A model generated the notes under the pieces. The model saw only the letters and a program-made list of their open reading frames with translations, was not told the DNA's origin and ran no database searches. Below are positions 26,131-50,607 of a stretch of 64,000 bases of DNA, in pieces. Source of the DNA: Nitrososphaerota archaeon (GTDB taxonomy: Archaea; Thermoproteota; Nitrososphaeria; Nitrososphaerales; Nitrosopumilaceae); assembly GCA_028866895.1 (NCBI GenBank), contig JAGWHF010000004.1, forward strand, positions 62,001 through 126,000, written 5' to 3'. The stretch's first letter is position 1. Every line of letters begins with the position of its first letter. Position numbers and translations under genes: made by a program.

Positions 26131-28302
26131 CTATGCCTTGATCTCAGTCCCAAACGGGCGCGTCACCGTATTGCAGCATTCTGCAAGCATCCTGACATAC
26201 CTCCTGACGTCATATCCGGCGCCTGCCATCTGGAGCGGCGCAGTCCTCCTCGTCCTCCTTGAATAATCCGTGATGACATAGCGCACCTTCTGGCCAGCCC
26301 TGACATCATCTCCTTCAGCATGCATCTGGAGCATCGCGTCTCGCTGCACCGAGTTTACCCTGTAGCTGCACACATCCTTTGATGCCCTAGTAGTGAACGC
26401 AAGCTCGTCTGCAGGCACTGCCCCCCCTTCAAGATCCCCCTTGTACTTTTCATATATCGAGAGTGCCTGCGGCATCACGTCCCGCACCTCTGATATGCTG
26501 CCCGCGCGAGCCATCATCCCGAGCACCTCAAGCTGGCACCTCCTGAGGAATTCCGGTGTGTCGTGCCTCCTTGCCTCAATCCCGCGAATCTTCATCCTTC
26601 CATCCTCGAAGGCCCCAAAGTACTTGTTTGCAACCGGGACCATGACATCCTCCCTTGACGGCAGGAAGACAAGCCACCTGTATACTTCAAGCGACATCTC
26701 AAATCCAGTAGCGCGCACAATCTCATCCCGCACGTGCCCATATTCGTCCCTTGTAGCCCCCTTCCTGTGCAGCCACAACGAATCCACTATGCCGTGCAGT
26801 ACGCGGAAACCCCTCTCCTCAGCTATGCGTACGGCCTGCAGCAGTATCCTGCGCGCAAACGCGCAGACTGCCATGTGCGCGTCAATCCTGCCGAACTTGG
26901 CGTTGTTAAATCCGAGGTACCCAAACGACGTTACAAGTATCCACTTGAGCGCAGACTTTCTTGCCTCGTAGACGCTTGATCTTTCTCCGTGCGGCCCTGC
27001 AAGTAGCTCGGTGTACATCCTCCTCTTTTTGAGCAGTATCCCAAGCGACTGGGGCACTATTCCCTTCCTCCTGCAGATGTTGTACCCAAGCTCCGGTACA
27101 CGGTTTTCCGAGTCTTGGCAGCAGGGACAGAGTATGGTCTCGGCCGATATGTTCTTCTTCTCCATGATGGAGCCGTAAAGCGATGCAAAGTCAAGCTCGG
27201 CCACGTTCTCGTACGCTCCGGCCTCGGGTTCGAAGATGAGCCCTCCCCTGTCGCCTACCAGCAGTTCGCTTCTTGGCTTGAATGCCTCCGCCATCACAGG
27301 CTTCCACGGTACGAGCAGGCCCCGCCGCTCCGCATTGTAGAACTGGAGTGACGACATGCACCTGCCTATCGAGGCGCGCGATGCAGTCTGCAGCGGCATC
27401 CTGCAGACACGCGCAATCTCGTAGAGGCCGTGCAGGTCTTCCGGACCGCCCCAGATGAAGCAGCTTGACGTGTCGATGTGTATGCGGCCAAAGAGCATGA
27501 CTGCGGACGGCTTGAAGTACATCCTCCCGTATGAAAAGTATGACGTGCCCTTTCGCCGCGGCCTCTGCAGGGGCACCACCTCCCTCCCAAGCACAAGCCT
27601 GTGCGAGATGCCGTTCTCCGATGCACGGTGCACGAGGTATGGAAGATCAAACGAGTCTCCGCCCGACGTGATGACAAGGTCCGGATCCTGCCTCCTGATA
27701 TCACTAACAAGCTGCAGCATGATCTCCGTCTCGTCGCCCGACCGGATGATCTCACCGTTTATGATGATCGAGTCTATTCTGTCAGAGGGCCTTGCAAGCC
27801 TTGATTGCTTCCTTGGTACCACCGATACGTATGCCATCCGCAGGGCCGGGATCTCATAGTCGGTCGACTCGACGTCATCTTCCTGCACCCATCCATTTTT
27901 TCTGGCAAACCGCCCAAACGGGAATATGTCGTACTCGTAAAAGTATGACTGGGCGGGCGGCACGTCGACGTTGTAAAGCCGGTACCTGCCGTACCCATGT
28001 AGCGACTCGACGGTACGTGCGAGATCCAGTATCGAGTGAGAGTCCCTGAGGCGAAGCCTCAAAACGTTGGACCTTGCGGCATCGGTCACCCTCTCAACTC
28101 TTTCCACAATCTCGTCCGATGAGATGTACTGCAGCACCTTCCCGTTGCGAGCAAGCCTCTCAAGGTTCTTTCTGTCGTCCGATGCCACGTAGATGGAAGG
28201 CGTCCAGTCGTCCTCTATGCGCGTCATTCCGCGTCCATCCTTTATCCAGGACACCATAGTGCTGCCTATCGGGTAAGAATCAAAGAGCAGTCCGGTGGTC
28301 AT
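26131..28302 (-). CDS. B-family DNA polymerase lacking a recognisable exonuclease motif I
   Basis: A 723-residue PolB. Polymerase motif A is DFASLYGSI (catalytic D371), motif B is KWILVTSFGYLG (K453; the usual N-S-x-Y replaced), and motif C is HGIVDSLW with D507, the first Asp of the usual DTD replaced by Ile. The exonuclease region keeps GGDSFDLPYL (about 214-223) but where DxE should be it reads LRMAYVSVVP, so proofreading is probably absent. A cysteine cluster (CPCC ... C) near 392-410 may bind zinc. It is the last gene of a four-gene operon, overlapping the upstream gene by 23 bases. A role in damage tolerance is inferred. Confidence 0.9.
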   Translation of the reverse strand: MTTGLLFDSYPIGSTMVSWIKDGRGMTRIEDDWTPSIYVASDDRKNLERLARNGKVLQYISSDEIVERVERVTDAARSNVLRLRLRDSHSILDLARTVESLHGYGRYRLYNVDVPPAQSYFYEYDIFPFGRFARKNGWVQEDDVESTDYEIPALRMAYVSVVPRKQSRLARPSDRIDSIIINGEIIRSGDETEIMLQLVSDIRRQDPDLVITSGGDSFDLPYLVHRASENGISHRLVLGREVVPLQRPRRKGTSYFSYGRMYFKPSAVMLFGRIHIDTSSCFIWGGPEDLHGLYEIARVCRMPLQTASRASIGRCMSSLQFYNAERRGLLVPWKPVMAEAFKPRSELLVGDRGGLIFEPEAGAYENVAELDFASLYGSIMEKKNISAETILCPCCQDSENRVPELGYNICRRKGIVPQSLGILLKKRRMYTELLAGPHGERSSVYEARKSALKWILVTSFGYLGFNNAKFGRIDAHMAVCAFARRILLQAVRIAEERGFRVLHGIVDSLWLHRKGATRDEYGHVRDEIVRATGFEMSLEVYRWLVFLPSREDVMVPVANKYFGAFEDGRMKIRGIEARRHDTPEFLRRCQLEVLGMMARAGSISEVRDVMPQALSIYEKYKGDLEGGAVPADELAFTTRASKDVCSYRVNSVQRDAMLQMHAEGDDVRAGQKVRYVITDYSRRTRRTAPLQMAGAGYDVRRYVRMLAECCNTVTRPFGTEIKA

Positions 28303-28540
28303 CTGCCCCTCTCTTCCCCATCAGGAACTCGATTATCTGCTGCTGCGAGAGTATGAGCGACATCAGTACCGACTCGGTAGGAAAGGCATCACCCCTTGCG
28401 TTTATAGCCTTGGCATGCCTGTAGCAGCGGTCAAGCATCTGTCTGAAGACAGCCCTATCCTCTGCGCGCAGCCCCTCTGCAAATCCCTTCCAGGCCTCTA
28501 TCTCCCTTGCAAGTATGTCATCGTTTGGAAAGAGTGCCAT
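28280..28540 (-). CDS. Small helical protein of the polymerase operon
   Basis: An 86-residue helical protein: ILAREIEAWKGFAEGL, RAVFRQMLDRCYRHAKAINA, and LMSLILSQQQIIEFLMGKRG. ATG 28540 lies one base after the stop of the preceding gene and its own stop overlaps the polymerase start. Its internal pattern (polar helix with W-F, then RxxFxxMLxxCxxHA, then a hydrophobic helix with Q-Q) is like that of the 77-residue protein before it, so the two may be distant paralogues forming a heterodimer. Unknown family. Confidence 0.75.
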   Translation of the reverse strand: MALFPNDDILAREIEAWKGFAEGLRAEDRAVFRQMLDRCYRHAKAINARGDAFPTESVLMSLILSQQQIIEFLMGKRGADDHRTAL

Positions 28541-28541
28541 G

Positions 28542-28775
28542 TCATATTCCAAGCGAGAGCAGCTGCTTGTACTGGTGCAACAGCATGGCCATCATCATAC
28601 AGTGAATCCGGACAGGTCTTGCTGCCATCATGCATGCAGATACGTGCAGTCTTGACGCAAGAAACATCCTGTCAAGCGTAACGCGGTCCTTCCTGTCAAG
28701 CGCGTCCCTGAACGGCTTCCACCTCTTTTCCTCCAGATGCAGCGCGATCCTAAATGACGGAATTGTCCTTCCCAT
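28542..28775 (-). CDS. Small helical protein of the polymerase operon
   Basis: A 77-residue protein: basic N-terminus, EEKRWKPFRDALDRKDRVTLDRMF, SRLHVSACMMA and a C-terminal hydrophobic helix IHCMMMAMLLHQYKQLLSLG. It follows the RadA-like gene by three bases. The layout of a W-x-x-F helix, an R-x-x-x-x-x-M-F helix and a hydrophobic helix parallels its downstream neighbour. Likely a bridging or DNA-facing subunit of the same complex; no known domain. Confidence 0.72.
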   Translation of the reverse strand: MGRTIPSFRIALHLEEKRWKPFRDALDRKDRVTLDRMFLASRLHVSACMMAARPVRIHCMMMAMLLHQYKQLLSLGI

Positions 28776-28778
28776 ACG

Positions 28779-29603
28779 TCACCGCCTCGGTACGGCCTCC
28801 AAGTCGCTTTCCTTTATGGCGCAGTCTCTACCCTCAAGGCCCACTGTTACTATTCCTCCCATCTCTGAGAGCCTGATTACCCTGTCAAACGAGCCAAGCA
28901 GCATTCCATCGTATACAGTAGGCTCTGAGATCGACATTATGACAAGGCAGTCTTTCAGCCTCGAGAGTGCCGCCGATACGGAGTCAAGCAACCACTTTGC
29001 TTCCGCCCCGTCAAGTGACGCTCCGGGAAACATTGCAAGCATGTCCGAGAGCATCACGAGCCTTGCGCCATATTTTTTTACCACGCCTGAAAGCTCATGC
29101 GATACCAGATATTCAAGCTGGTGCACCGTAAAGGCGCGGGATGATATTATCCTGGACATCACGAGGTTTACATCAAGACCGTACTGGCGCGCAAAGTCTA
29201 TGCAGAGGTACGGGTCGGAGATATTCCCTCCATCCACTAGGACTACATGCGAGTCAAGGCCCCCATGTCTTGCCGGCATCTGTGCCCTTACCGCAAGCCT
29301 CTCAAGGATCTTCTGCGAGTGGCGCCCCACTAGGGCCACCTTCTGGCCAGTACTAAGAAAAGGGATTGCCGACTCGATCTTCCTGATGTCAATTCCAAGC
29401 CTAGGCACCCGTGATGCCTGCTGGAAGGCCACCTCCCTTTCCTCCCTTGGCATGAGACTCCTTTTCTGCAGGCTCTCGGACAGGAGCGATCCGCAGAAGG
29501 GACACGGTTCTGTAATGCTTGAGAGGCTCACCTCGGACTCGGTCTCGCGCAGTACGCCCTCGCATTCCGAACAGTAGTATTGAAGTATCACCCCATCTAT
29601 CAT
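28779..29603 (-). CDS. Zinc-ribbon RadA/RecA-like ATPase with degenerate Walker A
   Basis: A 274-residue protein: zinc ribbon at residues 11-37 (CSEC, CPFC), then a RadA/RecA-like core. The Walker A position reads VALVGRHSQKIL (93-99), with Lys but lacking the usual G before it and T/S after it. The following parts match RadA: VVLVDGGNISDPYLCIDFA (the DTENTF-like element), FARQYGLDVNLVMSR, and the Walker B strand RLVMLSDML. It probably binds the polymerase or DNA with weak or no ATP hydrolysis. It is the first gene of the operon; a TTTTTTTATAG box at 29621-29635 is about 27 bases before ATG 29603. Confidence 0.82.
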   Translation of the reverse strand: MIDGVILQYYCSECEGVLRETESEVSLSSITEPCPFCGSLLSESLQKRSLMPREEREVAFQQASRVPRLGIDIRKIESAIPFLSTGQKVALVGRHSQKILERLAVRAQMPARHGGLDSHVVLVDGGNISDPYLCIDFARQYGLDVNLVMSRIISSRAFTVHQLEYLVSHELSGVVKKYGARLVMLSDMLAMFPGASLDGAEAKWLLDSVSAALSRLKDCLVIMSISEPTVYDGMLLGSFDRVIRLSEMGGIVTVGLEGRDCAIKESDLEAVPRR

Positions 29604-29607
29604 TGGT

Positions 29608-29635
29608 ACGGTAAATTACGGTAACAACTATAAAA
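29608..29635 (-). promoter_or_regulatory. Promoter and tandem-repeat operator of the polymerase operon
   Basis: On the plus strand ACGGTAA occurs twice with a 10-bp period (29608-29614 and 29618-29624), between the TATA box (ACTATAAAAAAA, about 29627-29638) and the start codon at 29603. Repeats one helical turn apart overlapping the transcription start are typical of a repressor site. Confidence 0.5.
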
Positions 29636-29800: not shown

Positions 29801-30991
29801 CTAGAGCAGTGCCTGAACTATCTGTTTGGTCTCGGGGCTTCTTCTTGCCATGGTGCATGCCCTCGATACGAGGACCTCGGCACACTTCTCCCTGATCCAG
29901 TCGCACATCTGCCCTATCGTCTTTTCCACCAGCCCCTCTGCGTCCCGTACCAGGACCAGGAGAGTATAGGCCAGAAACACCCACCTCCAGTGTCTATTGG
30001 AAGCGCGACTATCCCTGACCATGTACTCCCCCAGTCCTAGTGATTGTTTGCCGTCCCTGTAAAACTCTTCTATCCTGTGCCTTCGGTCGTATTCTAGGAC
30101 AACCTCGTCAGCACCGATTCCCATGGTATCAGATACCAGAAAGTGCATCACGTCGGGCCCCTTTTGGAACAGCCTCTCCTTCATTACAAGACTGATGTCT
30201 CCCAGGCTCTCGACATGCACCTCTTTCTGAAAGCACGAGTACAGGTTCCCCTCGATATAGTGATCAGAAAACATATGCCGGACAAGCAGCCGCATCCCGT
30301 CAAGCTTGACCCTGTTTCCCTCGTACCAGGCCCACCTGTTTGGCTTGGATTCTGAGATATAGTGCCATCCCCGGGCATGCACTGCATCGACTATCTCCTT
30401 TGAGAGATACCACGTGTCAAAGAGTACCGTGACGTCCGCTCATGGCGGCACCCTGAAAGATTTGATGAGCTCCCCTGCAAGCTCTATCCTTGTCTTGAAC
30501 GGTACGCCCATGGTACCACACATGTCCTCCTTGACATACAGCCTCACGTCCACCGGGTATCCCATGCCGCCTGCCACCATGAACGACGTGACGACATCAT
30601 GGCACAGAATCGACCTGTGCTCCTTTGTGGAAAAGATGTATCCGGCACCCTCCATGTGGGTGCCGAACTTTTGCAGGAGGCTGTCATCGATTATCAGGAA
30701 TACCTTCAGCCTTCCGCTGGGCCTTCGCTTGGCAATGTTGCGCCACACCATATCCATCACCCTTGCCTGGATGGAATTGTCGTCGATGGCATCTGAATGG
30801 ATGAACCGGTTGAGATTTGACTGGTCCACCCTCTCCTGGCAGGATACGGCAATCCTCCTTATGCTCTTGCGGTCGGACGCCGCCAGCCCTATTATGTACC
30901 TGCAAAAGTGCCTGAACCGTATCCTTGACATCAGATTCCTGAACCTGTTGAGGAAGCACTCGAGTTCTGGTACGACTGTGAGTAGCCTCAC
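29801..30991 (-). pseudogene. IS transposase (DDE type) with one in-frame stop
   Basis: From GTG 30991 one frame runs to 29801 (396 codons), broken only by TGA at 30440-30442, after RVPP and before ADVTVLFDTWYL. DDE signatures are intact on both sides: LIIDDSLL (first Asp), VTVLFDTWYLSKEIV (second Asp) and the YREK-like stretch YDRRHRIEEFYRDGKQSLGL (Glu). A TAG precedes the start in frame. A single-base change restores the gene, so inactivation is recent, or the stop is read through. Confidence 0.85.
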
Positions 30992-34740: not shown

Positions 34741-35820
34741 TTATGATTGAGATTCGATCTCTTTGAATTCTTCCGGATGAGCATCCCTGTATCTCCGGAA
34801 CCACCGTACCATCGACTCGTGCACCTTCATTTCTGCCTCCAGTTCCGAGATCCTCTTGGCTTTGGCGGCAACCTCCAGCCTGCTTCTCTCTGCATCATCT
34901 ATGATCAGGTTGGGGATGTGCCTCTTGAACTCGTCAAACAGTGCCATCACACCAGGATCATGGTACGCCCCGTCCAGCGGAAGGAGCCTGGTGCTGTGGG
35001 CCATCAGTTTTTCCTTGAGATGAATGCTTCCCCCATTGTTGTTCTTGATTATGGTATTGAAGCGTTTTCGAAAGCCATGGTCAAGTTGTATCTCGTATCT
35101 ATTTCCCTGTCTTGCACGCTCGATTCCTGCCTTTCTTAGTACTTGGGCCACAAATGCCTGGATTGCTTCCTTTGAGACGGGTCTAGCCTTTGAGGCGCCA
35201 AACTGGTACGACCGCCTGATCAGGGGCGACTCTCTTGTCATAATCTCGCCGTCCCTCTTGCGTTTTTCCAAGTATGCATCAACAACCCTGCTTGCCTCGG
35301 GCGTGAGAAATCCAACATACTCTTCTGCCTCTCCTTCGTAAAAGGTGACTGCCTTGCAGTCTTCTATTTCTTGCATATGTTTGAGGTGCAGTGATGGAAT
35401 CGCACCTACCCTGCATCCAGTTGATGCAAACAGGTGAATGATTGCCTTTCCACGGTGGTTGGTAGTAACTTCCAACATTTGCCGGACTTGTGCTGTTGTG
35501 TACGCTTTTCCGCCGGTTTTTTTGAGTCTTGCAGGAAACATCTTTCTGATCTTTTTGAAATTTAGATTTTTGTCGTTTATGGCAAGGAACAGTTCAAGTG
35601 CCGCAAAATGTGGTGGGATTGAGTTTGGACCCACGCGTTTTTTCAGGTGAAAGAGATAGTCTTCCAAAAGTCTTTGGAGAAAATCATCCTTTAGTTGCAA
35701 GAGTTCTTCTGCTCTAGGTATTTTTGCATATTTCAAAAACCTGTTCAGGGAATAGTTGTACTGTTCCCTGGTGGCATCGGATTTTACCGCGTTCTCAAAC
35801 CGCAGAAGAGCCCTTTGCAT
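34741..35820 (-). CDS. Tyrosine recombinase/integrase
   Basis: A 359-residue protein: N-terminal SAM-like core-binding domain (about 1-95) and catalytic domain (about 105-300) with R137 in STGCRVGAIPSL, HGFRKRF (H248, R251), H275 in LMAHSTRLLP and nucleophile Y286 in DGAYHDP. The C-terminal 50 residues form a coiled coil (RISELEAEMKVHESMVRW). All catalytic residues are present, so it should be active. It marks the AT-rich island as an integrated element. A TTAAATATC box lies about 28 bases before ATG 35820. Confidence 0.88.
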   Translation of the reverse strand: MQRALLRFENAVKSDATREQYNYSLNRFLKYAKIPRAEELLQLKDDFLQRLLEDYLFHLKKRVGPNSIPPHFAALELFLAINDKNLNFKKIRKMFPARLKKTGGKAYTTAQVRQMLEVTTNHRGKAIIHLFASTGCRVGAIPSLHLKHMQEIEDCKAVTFYEGEAEEYVGFLTPEASRVVDAYLEKRKRDGEIMTRESPLIRRSYQFGASKARPVSKEAIQAFVAQVLRKAGIERARQGNRYEIQLDHGFRKRFNTIIKNNNGGSIHLKEKLMAHSTRLLPLDGAYHDPGVMALFDEFKRHIPNLIIDDAERSRLEVAAKAKRISELEAEMKVHESMVRWFRRYRDAHPEEFKEIESQS

Positions 35821-37192: not shown

Positions 37193-37993
37193 CTAGGGAT
37201 TGCCAAAATCCGCAAGCGATCTCTGGGCGGTGCATGTCCATTTGGCGTACGGTAGTTCCATCGAGACCCGCAGTTTGTTCGCTGTTACTGGTCCAAAGCC
37301 CTCAAACCTGTTGTTTGCCACCGCTACTGCAAGTGATATCCTGTCGCGCACCGCCTCGAGCCTGTCGGCCCACTTTTGCACAAGTACCGACCTGTCCCTC
37401 CTAACCGTCCCAAAGTCCTTCTCCGGTATGCTCCTGTCACCTATGAGTCTGAGGTAGACCATGTCTGATGTCAACGGTGCCGGATTTTCCACCCCGGAAA
37501 CCTCGTTCCAGACAAGGCAGAGATTCCTTTCGCGGAGGAACCGGTAGGAGTCCTCGGAGAACCATGACGCGTGACGTCCCTCGACTGCATACCTGTAGTT
37601 TCGCGGCACGTGCCTTGCCATCTTGTCAAGATGCGGTTCTGCCTCGCCAAACGAAAGCGAGGGCGGCAGCTGGATGACCAGGACTGCCAGCTTTCCCCCA
37701 AGAGGCCCAATTGCCCCAAGGAACCTGTCAAGATCAGGACCAGGCCTGAGCCTGCCCTCATGGGTTATCGAGCGCGGAAGCTTGGCTGCAAACATAAAGT
37801 TCTCAGGAGTCTCCCCATTCCACCGCCTTGCCACGGAGGACGACGGAATATTGTAGAAGGTAGAGTTTATCTCCGTCACGTCAAAGACCGACGAATAATA
37901 TCTGAGATATGCACTCGGCTCCATCCCACCCGGGTAAAAGTTTCCTTGCCAGCCAGCATAGCTCCACCCCGTGCACCCAATCCGAACCTCCAT
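37193..37993 (-). CDS. DUF72 family protein
   Basis: A 266-residue TIM-barrel-like DUF72 protein: the N-terminal RIGCTGWSYAGWQGNFYP, EINSTFYNIPSSSVARRW, NFMFAAKLPRSITHEGRL, and AVEGRHASWF, VVW-like NLCLVWNEV and YLRLIGDR elements. Length and motif order are normal. The family is widespread and its reaction is unproven. It is monocistronic. Confidence 0.9.
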   Translation of the reverse strand: MEVRIGCTGWSYAGWQGNFYPGGMEPSAYLRYYSSVFDVTEINSTFYNIPSSSVARRWNGETPENFMFAAKLPRSITHEGRLRPGPDLDRFLGAIGPLGGKLAVLVIQLPPSLSFGEAEPHLDKMARHVPRNYRYAVEGRHASWFSEDSYRFLRERNLCLVWNEVSGVENPAPLTSDMVYLRLIGDRSIPEKDFGTVRRDRSVLVQKWADRLEAVRDRISLAVAVANNRFEGFGPVTANKLRVSMELPYAKWTCTAQRSLADFGNP

Positions 37994-47757: not shown

Positions 47758-50607
47758 CTAATGGTTCCTAATGTCTTGGTTACCGTCGCCGTGCGGGTTT
47801 ACCTGACCTATCACGGTAACTCTATCAGAACCAATGTTTCCTACGTATATGTTGCCGCTTTCCGTGTCGACCGTTCCGCGTGCCGGACTGTCAAGGCCCA
47901 TAAGAGTCGCTACAACCTCGCCTGTTGGCGCGTCAATCACCGATACCTCGCCCGAAGAAGAGTCTCCCACATAGATGTTGTCGTTCAATTCATCAACGGT
48001 TACCCCAATCGGGCCTGATCCTACAGGTACCGTACCTGTCAATATGCCCCTTCCGCCGTCAATTACTGACACGGTGCCGTCCTCAAAGTTTGCAACATAC
48101 ACATTTCCGTTCTTCTCGTCAAATGCGACATCGATCGGATCCCTGCCAACAGGTATCGTGCCTGTTACCGAGTTTGTCAAGCCGTCAATAACTGACACGG
48201 TGCCATCAAAAAAGTTTGTCACATAGACCTTGTTGGCCCTGTCATCTACTGCCACTGAGTTAGGCCCACTTCCTACAGGGACTGTGGCTACTACCGCATC
48301 TGTGCCTGCATCAATTACGGAAACGGAGCGCGAGTTTGTGTTTGCCACGTAGAGGCGGTCATTTTTTCCGTCAAACGCAACACCAATTGGTCCCGTCCCT
48401 ACCTTGATGGTCCCGGTCACCTTGCCTGCCCTTGCATCAATTACTGAAACTGTGTTTCCATCAAACGATGTCCCCGTGTTTGTAACATAGACCCTGCCGT
48501 TCCTCTGGTCGAATGCCACGCCTTGAGGTCCGCTGCCCACCTTTATGGTGCTGGCAACAGAGTTTGTCCTGCCATCTATCACCGATAGAGTCCCGTCCGC
48601 ATTGTTTGCCACGTATATCTTGCCGTCATCCCTGTCAAACGCGAGCATCTCTGGCGTGTTCCCGACTGTTACGTTCCCTACAACTGAGTTTGCATCATCC
48701 ACATCCTCGTTTTTAATCTCGATGTGTCCCCTGACGGTACCAGAGTTGCGATATACGATGCTGCCCGTGCTGTTAATTACGGTAATTGACAGGGTGCCAT
48801 TTCCACCAGTCTTGTCCTGGCCTGATACTGACACCAGCAACATATCCTTGCCGCGGTCTCCGCCATGCCTGTCATGTGCGTCATGCCTTCCGTGCATATC
48901 GTGCGTCTCATTGGTTCCCATTCCCACGAATGTTGCCCGGGTCGAGTTGGCGTCAACCGAGAGGAATGTAATGTTGTTGCTGCTAATATCCAGAGTGGAG
49001 TTTCTGTCGTGATATTCGAAAGTACCCTTAATCGGGTTTGCCTTGTCAAGATCTGAATGCACCTCAAGCCCAAAGTTTGTGCCCCTGCCGATGCTTCCAC
49101 CTCCTGTCACCGTGCCGCTTGTAGGATCTGCAATGGCAGCCGGGTCCGATATCACCCCCACCACCGGATTACCATCAAATGGTCCGTTGTCTGATACCGT
49201 TAACGTCATGTTGTTTCCGGACACCGTCACAGGTAACGGTATCCAAGCGTCTCCTACGAGCTTAAAGTACTGGGACTCTCGGTAAAGCTGTGCAGGCGAC
49301 GTCACAGTCACGTTGACTGACGTGGCAGGCTCATATCCCATGACATCCCACGAGAAGAACCCCAATGGAAATATTCCAGGCGGTGGAGGTATTGCGAGGC
49401 CTGACTGTTGTACCGATTGGAGGTTTGTGAATCCTCCCGGTTTTGCGTTAAAGACTATGGGTGCAGCCCCAGATGGCGGTTGCAGTGTGAGAGTCGGCGC
49501 TGCATAGATTACTGACAGAGATGACATGGCGACATTTCCCGCCTCGTCCGTCGCGTTGACAAATACCTCATGCGGTCCAGGCCTCATCGGGCCGGTATTA
49601 AATGACCAGTTTGTAGTGCCAGTCGCGTTTGCCACCTTGCCCGAGTCCACCATCCACGTGACTGATGCAACGTCAATGTCATCGGACGCGTTGCCGGAGA
49701 CAGTCAGATTGGCTGACTCGAAAATTGTGCCGTTTGCTGGCGACTTGATGGCCAGTGTTGGCGGTATCGTGTCAATTGCGATGTGCAGCATGTTTTCCTT
49801 TTCCACGTTTCCCGCATTATCGGTAGAGTTGAAGGCGAGGGTGTGGTTGCCGTCGCCTGTCACATTAAACGGCGCAGAGTATGTTACCTGCGGACCTCCA
49901 TCAAGCGAGTAGCTGGTGGATCTTACACCCGAGCCCCCCGCATTGTCTGCCGCAGATAGCGCAACTTGGACCGGCGAGACGTACCACCCGTTTCTTCCTG
50001 CAGTGCCTGAAAGAGTCGCCGTTGTCGTTGGAGGCACGGTATCCGACGCCGGTGCACTACATTCCTTGTCACCTACAAGGTCCCAGCAGGACGAGAACAC
50101 CTGGCCCGGAGAGCCGTCCGGGTTTTGTTGCGTGTATTGTGTTAAGATCTTTTCATAGCTTATACCCATTGTCTCAGTTGGCAATTGGCCCGAGCTTGAA
50201 ACGGAATAGTGAGAGATGACGACGTTGGAAAGCGTGATGTGGTTGTATGTGAACTGGACTCTGTTTGATGTGGTTGTAAGATAGATCTCAACTGTCGGAA
50301 ATGATCTGCCGGCAATTAGGCCCTCTAAAAGTTGCGGCGATGCAATGTCCATCTGTTTTCCAACCACAAGATCGGAAAAGACTGGCCTGCCCACCTCTTG
50401 GACCCCGGATGGGTGCGCCACAGGTTTTGCAAGGCCAAACTGCATGCTTGTGAGCGGGATGTCATTTTGAAACCCCGTTGACGTGACAGGGCCATTGATA
50501 GGGCTTATCTTCATGTAAATCGCTGCTGACGCGTCATGTGCTGCAAACGAGACTATTGCAACGGCAGCAAGTGCAAGTATGAGGCCTGCTCTGATATTAA
50601 AAACCAA
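47758..50607 (-). CDS. Secreted Hcp-domain/Ig-like/YVTN-propeller protein
   Basis: A 949-residue exported protein. After a signal peptide (ending ASA) residues about 30-165 have the Hcp fold: IYMKISPINGPV, DIPLTSMQFGLAKPV, VGKQMDIASPQLLEGL, and SVSSSGQLPTETMGISYEKI. Then two Ig-like domains (DTVPPTTTATL; DTIPPTLAI), a beta domain, a His/Asp-rich loop (HDMHGRHDAHDRHGGDRG), and seven YVTN repeats (GVAFDxxNGxVYVTN, VSVID) forming a propeller. The start is TTG 50607 with no in-frame ATG nearby. It is downstream of, and paralogous at its N-terminus to, the Hcp-only gene. Confidence 0.85.
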   Translation of the reverse strand: MVFNIRAGLILALAAVAIVSFAAHDASAAIYMKISPINGPVTSTGFQNDIPLTSMQFGLAKPVAHPSGVQEVGRPVFSDLVVGKQMDIASPQLLEGLIAGRSFPTVEIYLTTTSNRVQFTYNHITLSNVVISHYSVSSSGQLPTETMGISYEKILTQYTQQNPDGSPGQVFSSCWDLVGDKECSAPASDTVPPTTTATLSGTAGRNGWYVSPVQVALSAADNAGGSGVRSTSYSLDGGPQVTYSAPFNVTGDGNHTLAFNSTDNAGNVEKENMLHIAIDTIPPTLAIKSPANGTIFESANLTVSGNASDDIDVASVTWMVDSGKVANATGTTNWSFNTGPMRPGPHEVFVNATDEAGNVAMSSLSVIYAAPTLTLQPPSGAAPIVFNAKPGGFTNLQSVQQSGLAIPPPPGIFPLGFFSWDVMGYEPATSVNVTVTSPAQLYRESQYFKLVGDAWIPLPVTVSGNNMTLTVSDNGPFDGNPVVGVISDPAAIADPTSGTVTGGGSIGRGTNFGLEVHSDLDKANPIKGTFEYHDRNSTLDISSNNITFLSVDANSTRATFVGMGTNETHDMHGRHDAHDRHGGDRGKDMLLVSVSGQDKTGGNGTLSITVINSTGSIVYRNSGTVRGHIEIKNEDVDDANSVVGNVTVGNTPEMLAFDRDDGKIYVANNADGTLSVIDGRTNSVASTIKVGSGPQGVAFDQRNGRVYVTNTGTSFDGNTVSVIDARAGKVTGTIKVGTGPIGVAFDGKNDRLYVANTNSRSVSVIDAGTDAVVATVPVGSGPNSVAVDDRANKVYVTNFFDGTVSVIDGLTNSVTGTIPVGRDPIDVAFDEKNGNVYVANFEDGTVSVIDGGRGILTGTVPVGSGPIGVTVDELNDNIYVGDSSSGEVSVIDAPTGEVVATLMGLDSPARGTVDTESGNIYVGNIGSDRVTVIGQVNPHGDGNQDIRNH

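Follow-up and report, generated by a model that had tools for sequence, protein, structure and literature searches.

Four genes on the minus strand of the window, as we call the whole 64,000-nucleotide stretch analysed here, very probably make up a Nitrososphaeria-type PolB2 mutasome operon that works by the mechanism proposed below. The genes run from 29603 to 26131 in the order iRadA, PPB2a, PPB2b, PolB2 and are tightly packed. Successive genes are separated by gaps of +3 and +1 bases, and PPB2b and PolB2 overlap by 23 bases. The ORF coordinates agree with a sequence-only reading of this DNA, which had given the same four frames, order, strand and spacings. The identification draws on direct observations: which genes are present and in what order, how they are conserved and co-occur, the purifying selection on them, and the state of their folds and motifs.

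The PolB2 mutasome is known from archaea and bacteria (PMC11791011). As described in the main text of that 2025 paper, it consists of three proteins: PolB2; the small helical PPB2 (earlier arCOG07300), which has a conserved MGRT arm at its N terminus; and iRadA, a homologue of RadA that lacks both the ATPase residues and the N-terminal helical domain. The architecture of the PolB2–PPB2–iRadA complex, with its PPB2 trimer, comes so far from models only (PMC11791011). The three-gene association of PolB2, arCOG07300 and a RadA homologue was reported earlier (PMC4104785). Gene sets of this kind are already on record for both archaea and bacteria, which makes the locus a well-formed further member and not a new system.

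The first gene, iRadA (29603-28779, minus strand, 274 aa), encodes a RadA/Rad51-like protein with an N-terminal zinc ribbon and no Walker A. It matches Rad51 in Pfam (4e-7) and RadA in a PDB sequence match (6e-6). At the Walker A position it reads GRHSQKI, versus GEFGSGKT in the canonical RadA of the same genome (L097), and the GxxxxGK[ST] motif is absent. The zinc ribbon, C11xxC14...C34xxC37, takes the place of the N-terminal helical domain and is retained in 19 of 22 aligned homologues; the protein is a RadA homologue without ATP-binding residues. Residues D124, Y132, R156, F158 and T159 are conserved. AlphaFold2 models the protein with confidence (mean pLDDT 89.1), and a Foldseek search with this model ranks RadA and RAD51 structures first, with a TM-score up to 0.81 by target length. 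The last 40 residues of iRadA and of PolB2 contain no QxxLxxFF-like clamp (PCNA)-binding motif, which is present in part of the family only and is not required.

Two small proteins follow. PPB2a (28775-28542, minus strand, 77 aa) is the armed copy, an arCOG07300-type PolB2 partner. It begins MGRTIPSFR at 28775, and G2, R3 and P6 are invariant across 19 homologues. PPB2b (28540-28280, minus strand, 86 aa) is a second PPB2 paralogue that starts MALFPNDDIL and carries no MGRT arm. Its ATG at 28540 is the best choice of start and gives the +1 spacing. Neither protein matches a Pfam or NCBIfam family above cut-off, and a DUF1376 match on PPB2b (E=0.0012, under the cut-off) was set aside as chance. 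A profile built from armed copies only retrieved PPB2b at E=2e-9, and its E-values for the remaining second copies were all about 1e-5 or better. Direct pairwise comparison of PPB2a with PPB2b is weak but consistent. By these matches the two are paralogues within a single known family, PPB2, and not two unrelated parts.

PPB2b is kept in order and position among relatives. By hand count, about 26 loci in the taxonomic order have both PPB2 copies, adjacent to each other, in the interval from iRadA to PolB2. In one genus-level group (g22), a single ORF of about 180-200 aa encodes PPB2a and PPB2b as a fusion, and PolB2 lies elsewhere. Such fusions, of 179-202 aa, were seen in L084, L087 and L090; in the first of these (genome G093), the fused PPB2 adjoins iRadA and PolB2 is far off in the genome. 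In another group (g28), iRadA–PPB2a–PPB2b occupies one site and PolB2 another. The genomes examined that have PolB2 elsewhere still keep iRadA–PPB2a–PPB2b or the PPB2a–PPB2b fusion. Other Thermoproteota and haloarchaeal plasmids have a single PPB2. Where PPB2 is duplicated, the main text of the published survey places MGRT on one copy only (PMC11791011).

The last gene, PolB2 (28302-26131, minus strand, 723 aa), encodes a Dpo2-type family-B DNA polymerase with intact palm and fingers and a decayed exonuclease. It matches Pfam DNA_pol_B at 8.5e-25, and the Foldseek matches of its AlphaFold2 model are archaeal family-B polymerases. Motif A reads DFASLYGS and the motif B Lys is present. Motif C reads HGIVDS, in which Ile replaces the first Asp, His stands at the Tyr position and the second Asp is kept. 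Aligned full-length homologues all retain the Asp of motif A, the Lys of motif B and the second Asp of motif C. Ahead of the palm, the loop LLVGDRGG contains the D(K/R) motif; D351, G353 and G354 are invariant in the PolB2 alignment. Aligned to PolB1 of the same genome, the Exo I residues D-I-E have become Y-V-S. In Exo II, Gly replaces Asn and one Asp is kept; the Exo III segment is missing. A PADLOC "homing endonuclease" match on PolB2 was rejected, as there is no insertion there and the model probably includes PolB host sequence. The replicative PolB1 of the same genome (L077 3987-7499) does carry an intein, of about 310 aa, exactly within motif C between YGD and TDS.

These results uphold what had been read from the letters of the four genes. 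The zinc-ribbon RadA-like protein with a degenerate Walker A has its Pfam Rad51 match, its four cysteines and no GxxxxGK[ST]; both small helical proteins are present as ORFs and are assigned to PPB2; and the PolB has the IVDS of motif C and no exonuclease motif I. Structure prediction had been suggested as a check on the RecA-like fold of the first protein. That fold is present, and the objection that it might be missing fails because the confident model best matches RadA/Rad51.

A maximum-likelihood tree was built from 45 polymerases. Its supported Nitrososphaeria PolB2 group contains the window PolB2, which pairs with that of a genus neighbour (100/100); this pair is joined next by three PolB2s from the same family (100/100). 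PolB2s of deep Nitrososphaeria mostly have a DxD-type motif C (YGDVDS, YSDVDS, YGDTDS). They fall near PolB1, a placement that is unsure because of long branches.

The iRadA–PPB2–PolB2 order is repeated in dozens of genomes across Nitrososphaeria, other Thermoproteota and haloarchaeal plasmids. A comparison of gene order in relatives, also suggested earlier, therefore finds it kept in Nitrososphaeria and beyond. On the haloarchaeal plasmids, Cdc6 genes and in one case SRAP adjoin the operon. In a sample of 213 genomes of the taxonomic order, PolB2 is present in 52, and 50 of these 52 have PPB2. PPB2 occurs in 4 of the 161 genomes without PolB2 (Fisher p=2e-41, on counts made by hand from tables; as the genomes are related, p overstates independence). 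Measured against the nearest relative, L004 (about 62-76% protein identity), dN/dS is 0.19 for iRadA, 0.13 for PPB2a, 0.15 for PPB2b and 0.17 for PolB2; the last two genes share 23 bases. All four genes are under purifying selection. With this range of dN/dS and the order repeated in so many genomes, the locus is far beyond chance.

The match to L004 is confined to the cassette, and the neighbouring genes differ. The operon is missing from most genomes of the same family and is therefore dispensable. Old presence followed by many losses fits the full-support grouping of PolB2 with those of its own family. For the same reason, we do not favour a recent horizontal acquisition from beyond the family; transfer within the family may have occurred. 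As to a viral origin, relatives in IMG/VR amount to only three loci, and two contigs listed there as viral carry the whole iRadA–PPB2–PolB2 cassette (L099 3192-6256 and L100 3192-6256). A decaying operon was seen at L092, where iRadA is intact and both PPB2 copies are broken; no PolB2 of this type was found in that genome.

Directly before the iRadA start lies a putative core promoter with a conserved upstream element (29604..29635, minus strand). It consists of a TATA-like TTTTATAG followed by TTACCGTAATTTACCG (29624-29609) and ends at the iRadA ATG. The 32 bases before the start, taken with the ATG, are identical to L004 at 33 of 35 positions, and the remaining upstream DNA has no clear match to L004. 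The operon transcript is probably leaderless, and the upstream element may act as an operator. We considered the 16-mer TTACCGTAATTTACCG as a mark of a damage regulon. It has no other exact copy in its own genome or that of L004, and two-mismatch matches are about as frequent as with a reversed control, so no regulon can be claimed. In Sulfolobus, the Orc1-2 regulator controls the damage response. A short near-palindrome resembling the upstream element, TTACCGTAATTAACAG, lies within a coding region at 48770-48792 of the window, probably by chance.

Three minus-strand genes in the surroundings were noted. A DDE_5 transposase gene (29801-30991), apparently broken into two frames, has its end some 200 bases upstream of the operon start, and a phage-integrase-family recombinase gene (34741-35820) lies about 5 kb upstream. 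A gene for a DUF72 protein (37193-37993) is about 8 kb from the operon. DUF72 is a published neighbour family, reported as enriched near polB2, and in L022 a DUF72-like ORF directly adjoins PolB2.

We propose the following pathway, in which damage induction, extension activity, the lack of exonuclease and the modelled complex are carried over from relatives. The operon would be induced after DNA damage. PPB2 would assemble into trimers, in which one PPB2a subunit would insert its MGRT arm between PolB2 (DRGG loop) and iRadA. PPB2b, we guess, probably occupies the arm-independent places of the trimer. iRadA would dock on PolB2 through the interface used between RadA subunits in a filament, and could thereby place PolB2 at the filament end. 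PolB2, with a working palm and no proofreading, would then extend mispaired or lesion-containing primer ends, resulting in damage tolerance with targeted mutations. The function is thus likely damage-inducible translesion extension, as for Sulfolobus Dpo2. In Sulfolobus islandicus, Dpo2 is damage-inducible and needed for targeted mutagenesis (PMC7390963). Purified Sulfolobus Dpo2, whose motif C is HxxxD, is an efficient polymerase without exonuclease that extends mismatched and lesion-containing ends (PMC8764526). Its catalytic residues are also present in the window PolB2.

Could the polymerase instead be catalytically dead, part of a structural or regulatory complex whose task is to mark or clear stalled forks or to assist in choosing origins? 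The change of the first motif-C Asp to Ile would agree with this, a role for an inactive protein in repair or in the control of replication has been proposed (PMC4104785), and the Cdc6 genes beside the haloarchaeal operons point the same way. However, the aligned full-length homologues preserve the three residues named above in motifs A, B and C, and the HxxxD-bearing Sulfolobus enzyme is both efficient (PMC8764526) and required for targeted mutagenesis (PMC7390963). We consider a dead PolB2 improbable. Still less credible is a decaying or mobile-element remnant beside insertion sequences, with no current function. The split transposase directly upstream, the integrase gene near by, the flanks that differ from the nearest relative, the patchy presence in the family and the decaying L092 copy would suit such a remnant. 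Yet the four frames are intact and the promoter element is conserved, and the selection result makes this reading very unlikely.

The sequence-only reading had proposed a mutasome bridged by the two small proteins, which fits the PolB2 publication (PMC11791011), and had called it an independently assembled or divergent equivalent of the bacterial ImuA–ImuB–DnaE2 cassette. "Independently assembled" is unsupported, because each gene has its homologue in the known PolB2–PPB2–iRadA operon. An independent analogue would share the plan of a RecA-like protein, a small linker and an error-prone polymerase, but here each gene is homologous to a PolB2 operon part in identical order. The polymerase is of family B, not C or Y, and the tree puts it within the supported group of PolB2 relatives. 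These homology results refute the analogue, to which we give almost no credence.

It is possible, though we lean against it, that the Nitrososphaeria operons form a distinct subtype with an obligate pair of armed and armless PPB2, a zinc-ribbon iRadA and, in deep lineages, a Walker A RadA in the operon. A RadA paralogue with intact Walker A lies directly upstream of iRadA in L055, L061, L062 (4244-5224, for example), L071 and L049. The Walker A of these proteins reads GSGKSQ, GSGKTQ or GTGKSQ, and those of L061, L062 and L071 form their own clade in a tree, apart from canonical RadA. iRadA–PPB2 fusions were seen in L054, L055, L061 and L062, also of deep Nitrososphaeria. The main text of PMC11791011 does not contain the word "zinc", and neither general PPB2a/PPB2b pairing with fusion in the order nor the upstream Walker A-intact RadA was found there; all three points may be recorded elsewhere in that paper. 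If the subtype holds, the PPB2 trimer would be mixed and of fixed composition, sometimes as a single fused chain, and the zinc ribbon would give iRadA an added DNA- or protein-binding contact, a role that we infer. The operon RadA with intact Walker A would then correspond directly to RecA in its role as activator of Pol V.

Through this locus, the known damage-bypass complex of PolB2 is placed in a lineage of ammonia oxidizers, as a complete operon with two adjacent PPB2 copies. PPB2a–PPB2b fusions and the RadA upstream of iRadA offer natural constraints on the stoichiometry of the complex and on its filament link.

Among known systems, the ImuA–ImuB–DnaE2 cassette has in common with the locus only the broad notion that a RecA-like protein accompanies an error-prone polymerase. 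Its polymerase is of another family and the locus has no ImuB homologue; the locus is neither a relative nor a member. E. coli Pol V (UmuC–UmuD'2–RecA) is similar by analogy, with a polymerase, an armed oligomeric small partner and a RecA-fold partner (PMC11791011), but it uses a Y-family polymerase, an unrelated small protein and an active RecA. Dpo2 of S. islandicus shares the polymerase group, the HxxxD motif C, the lack of proofreading residues and the operon partners. The window PolB2 is longer, at 723 aa versus 540-582 aa, and retains more of the decayed exonuclease domain. The published PolB2 mutasome agrees in content and order, in MGRT on one PPB2, in the D(K/R) loop, in the loss of the first motif-C Asp, in exonuclease decay and in a RadA-like partner without ATP-binding residues. 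The window locus differs from it in the N-terminal zinc ribbon of iRadA and in the paired PPB2a and PPB2b, which are the rule in this taxonomic order and are fused in some genomes.
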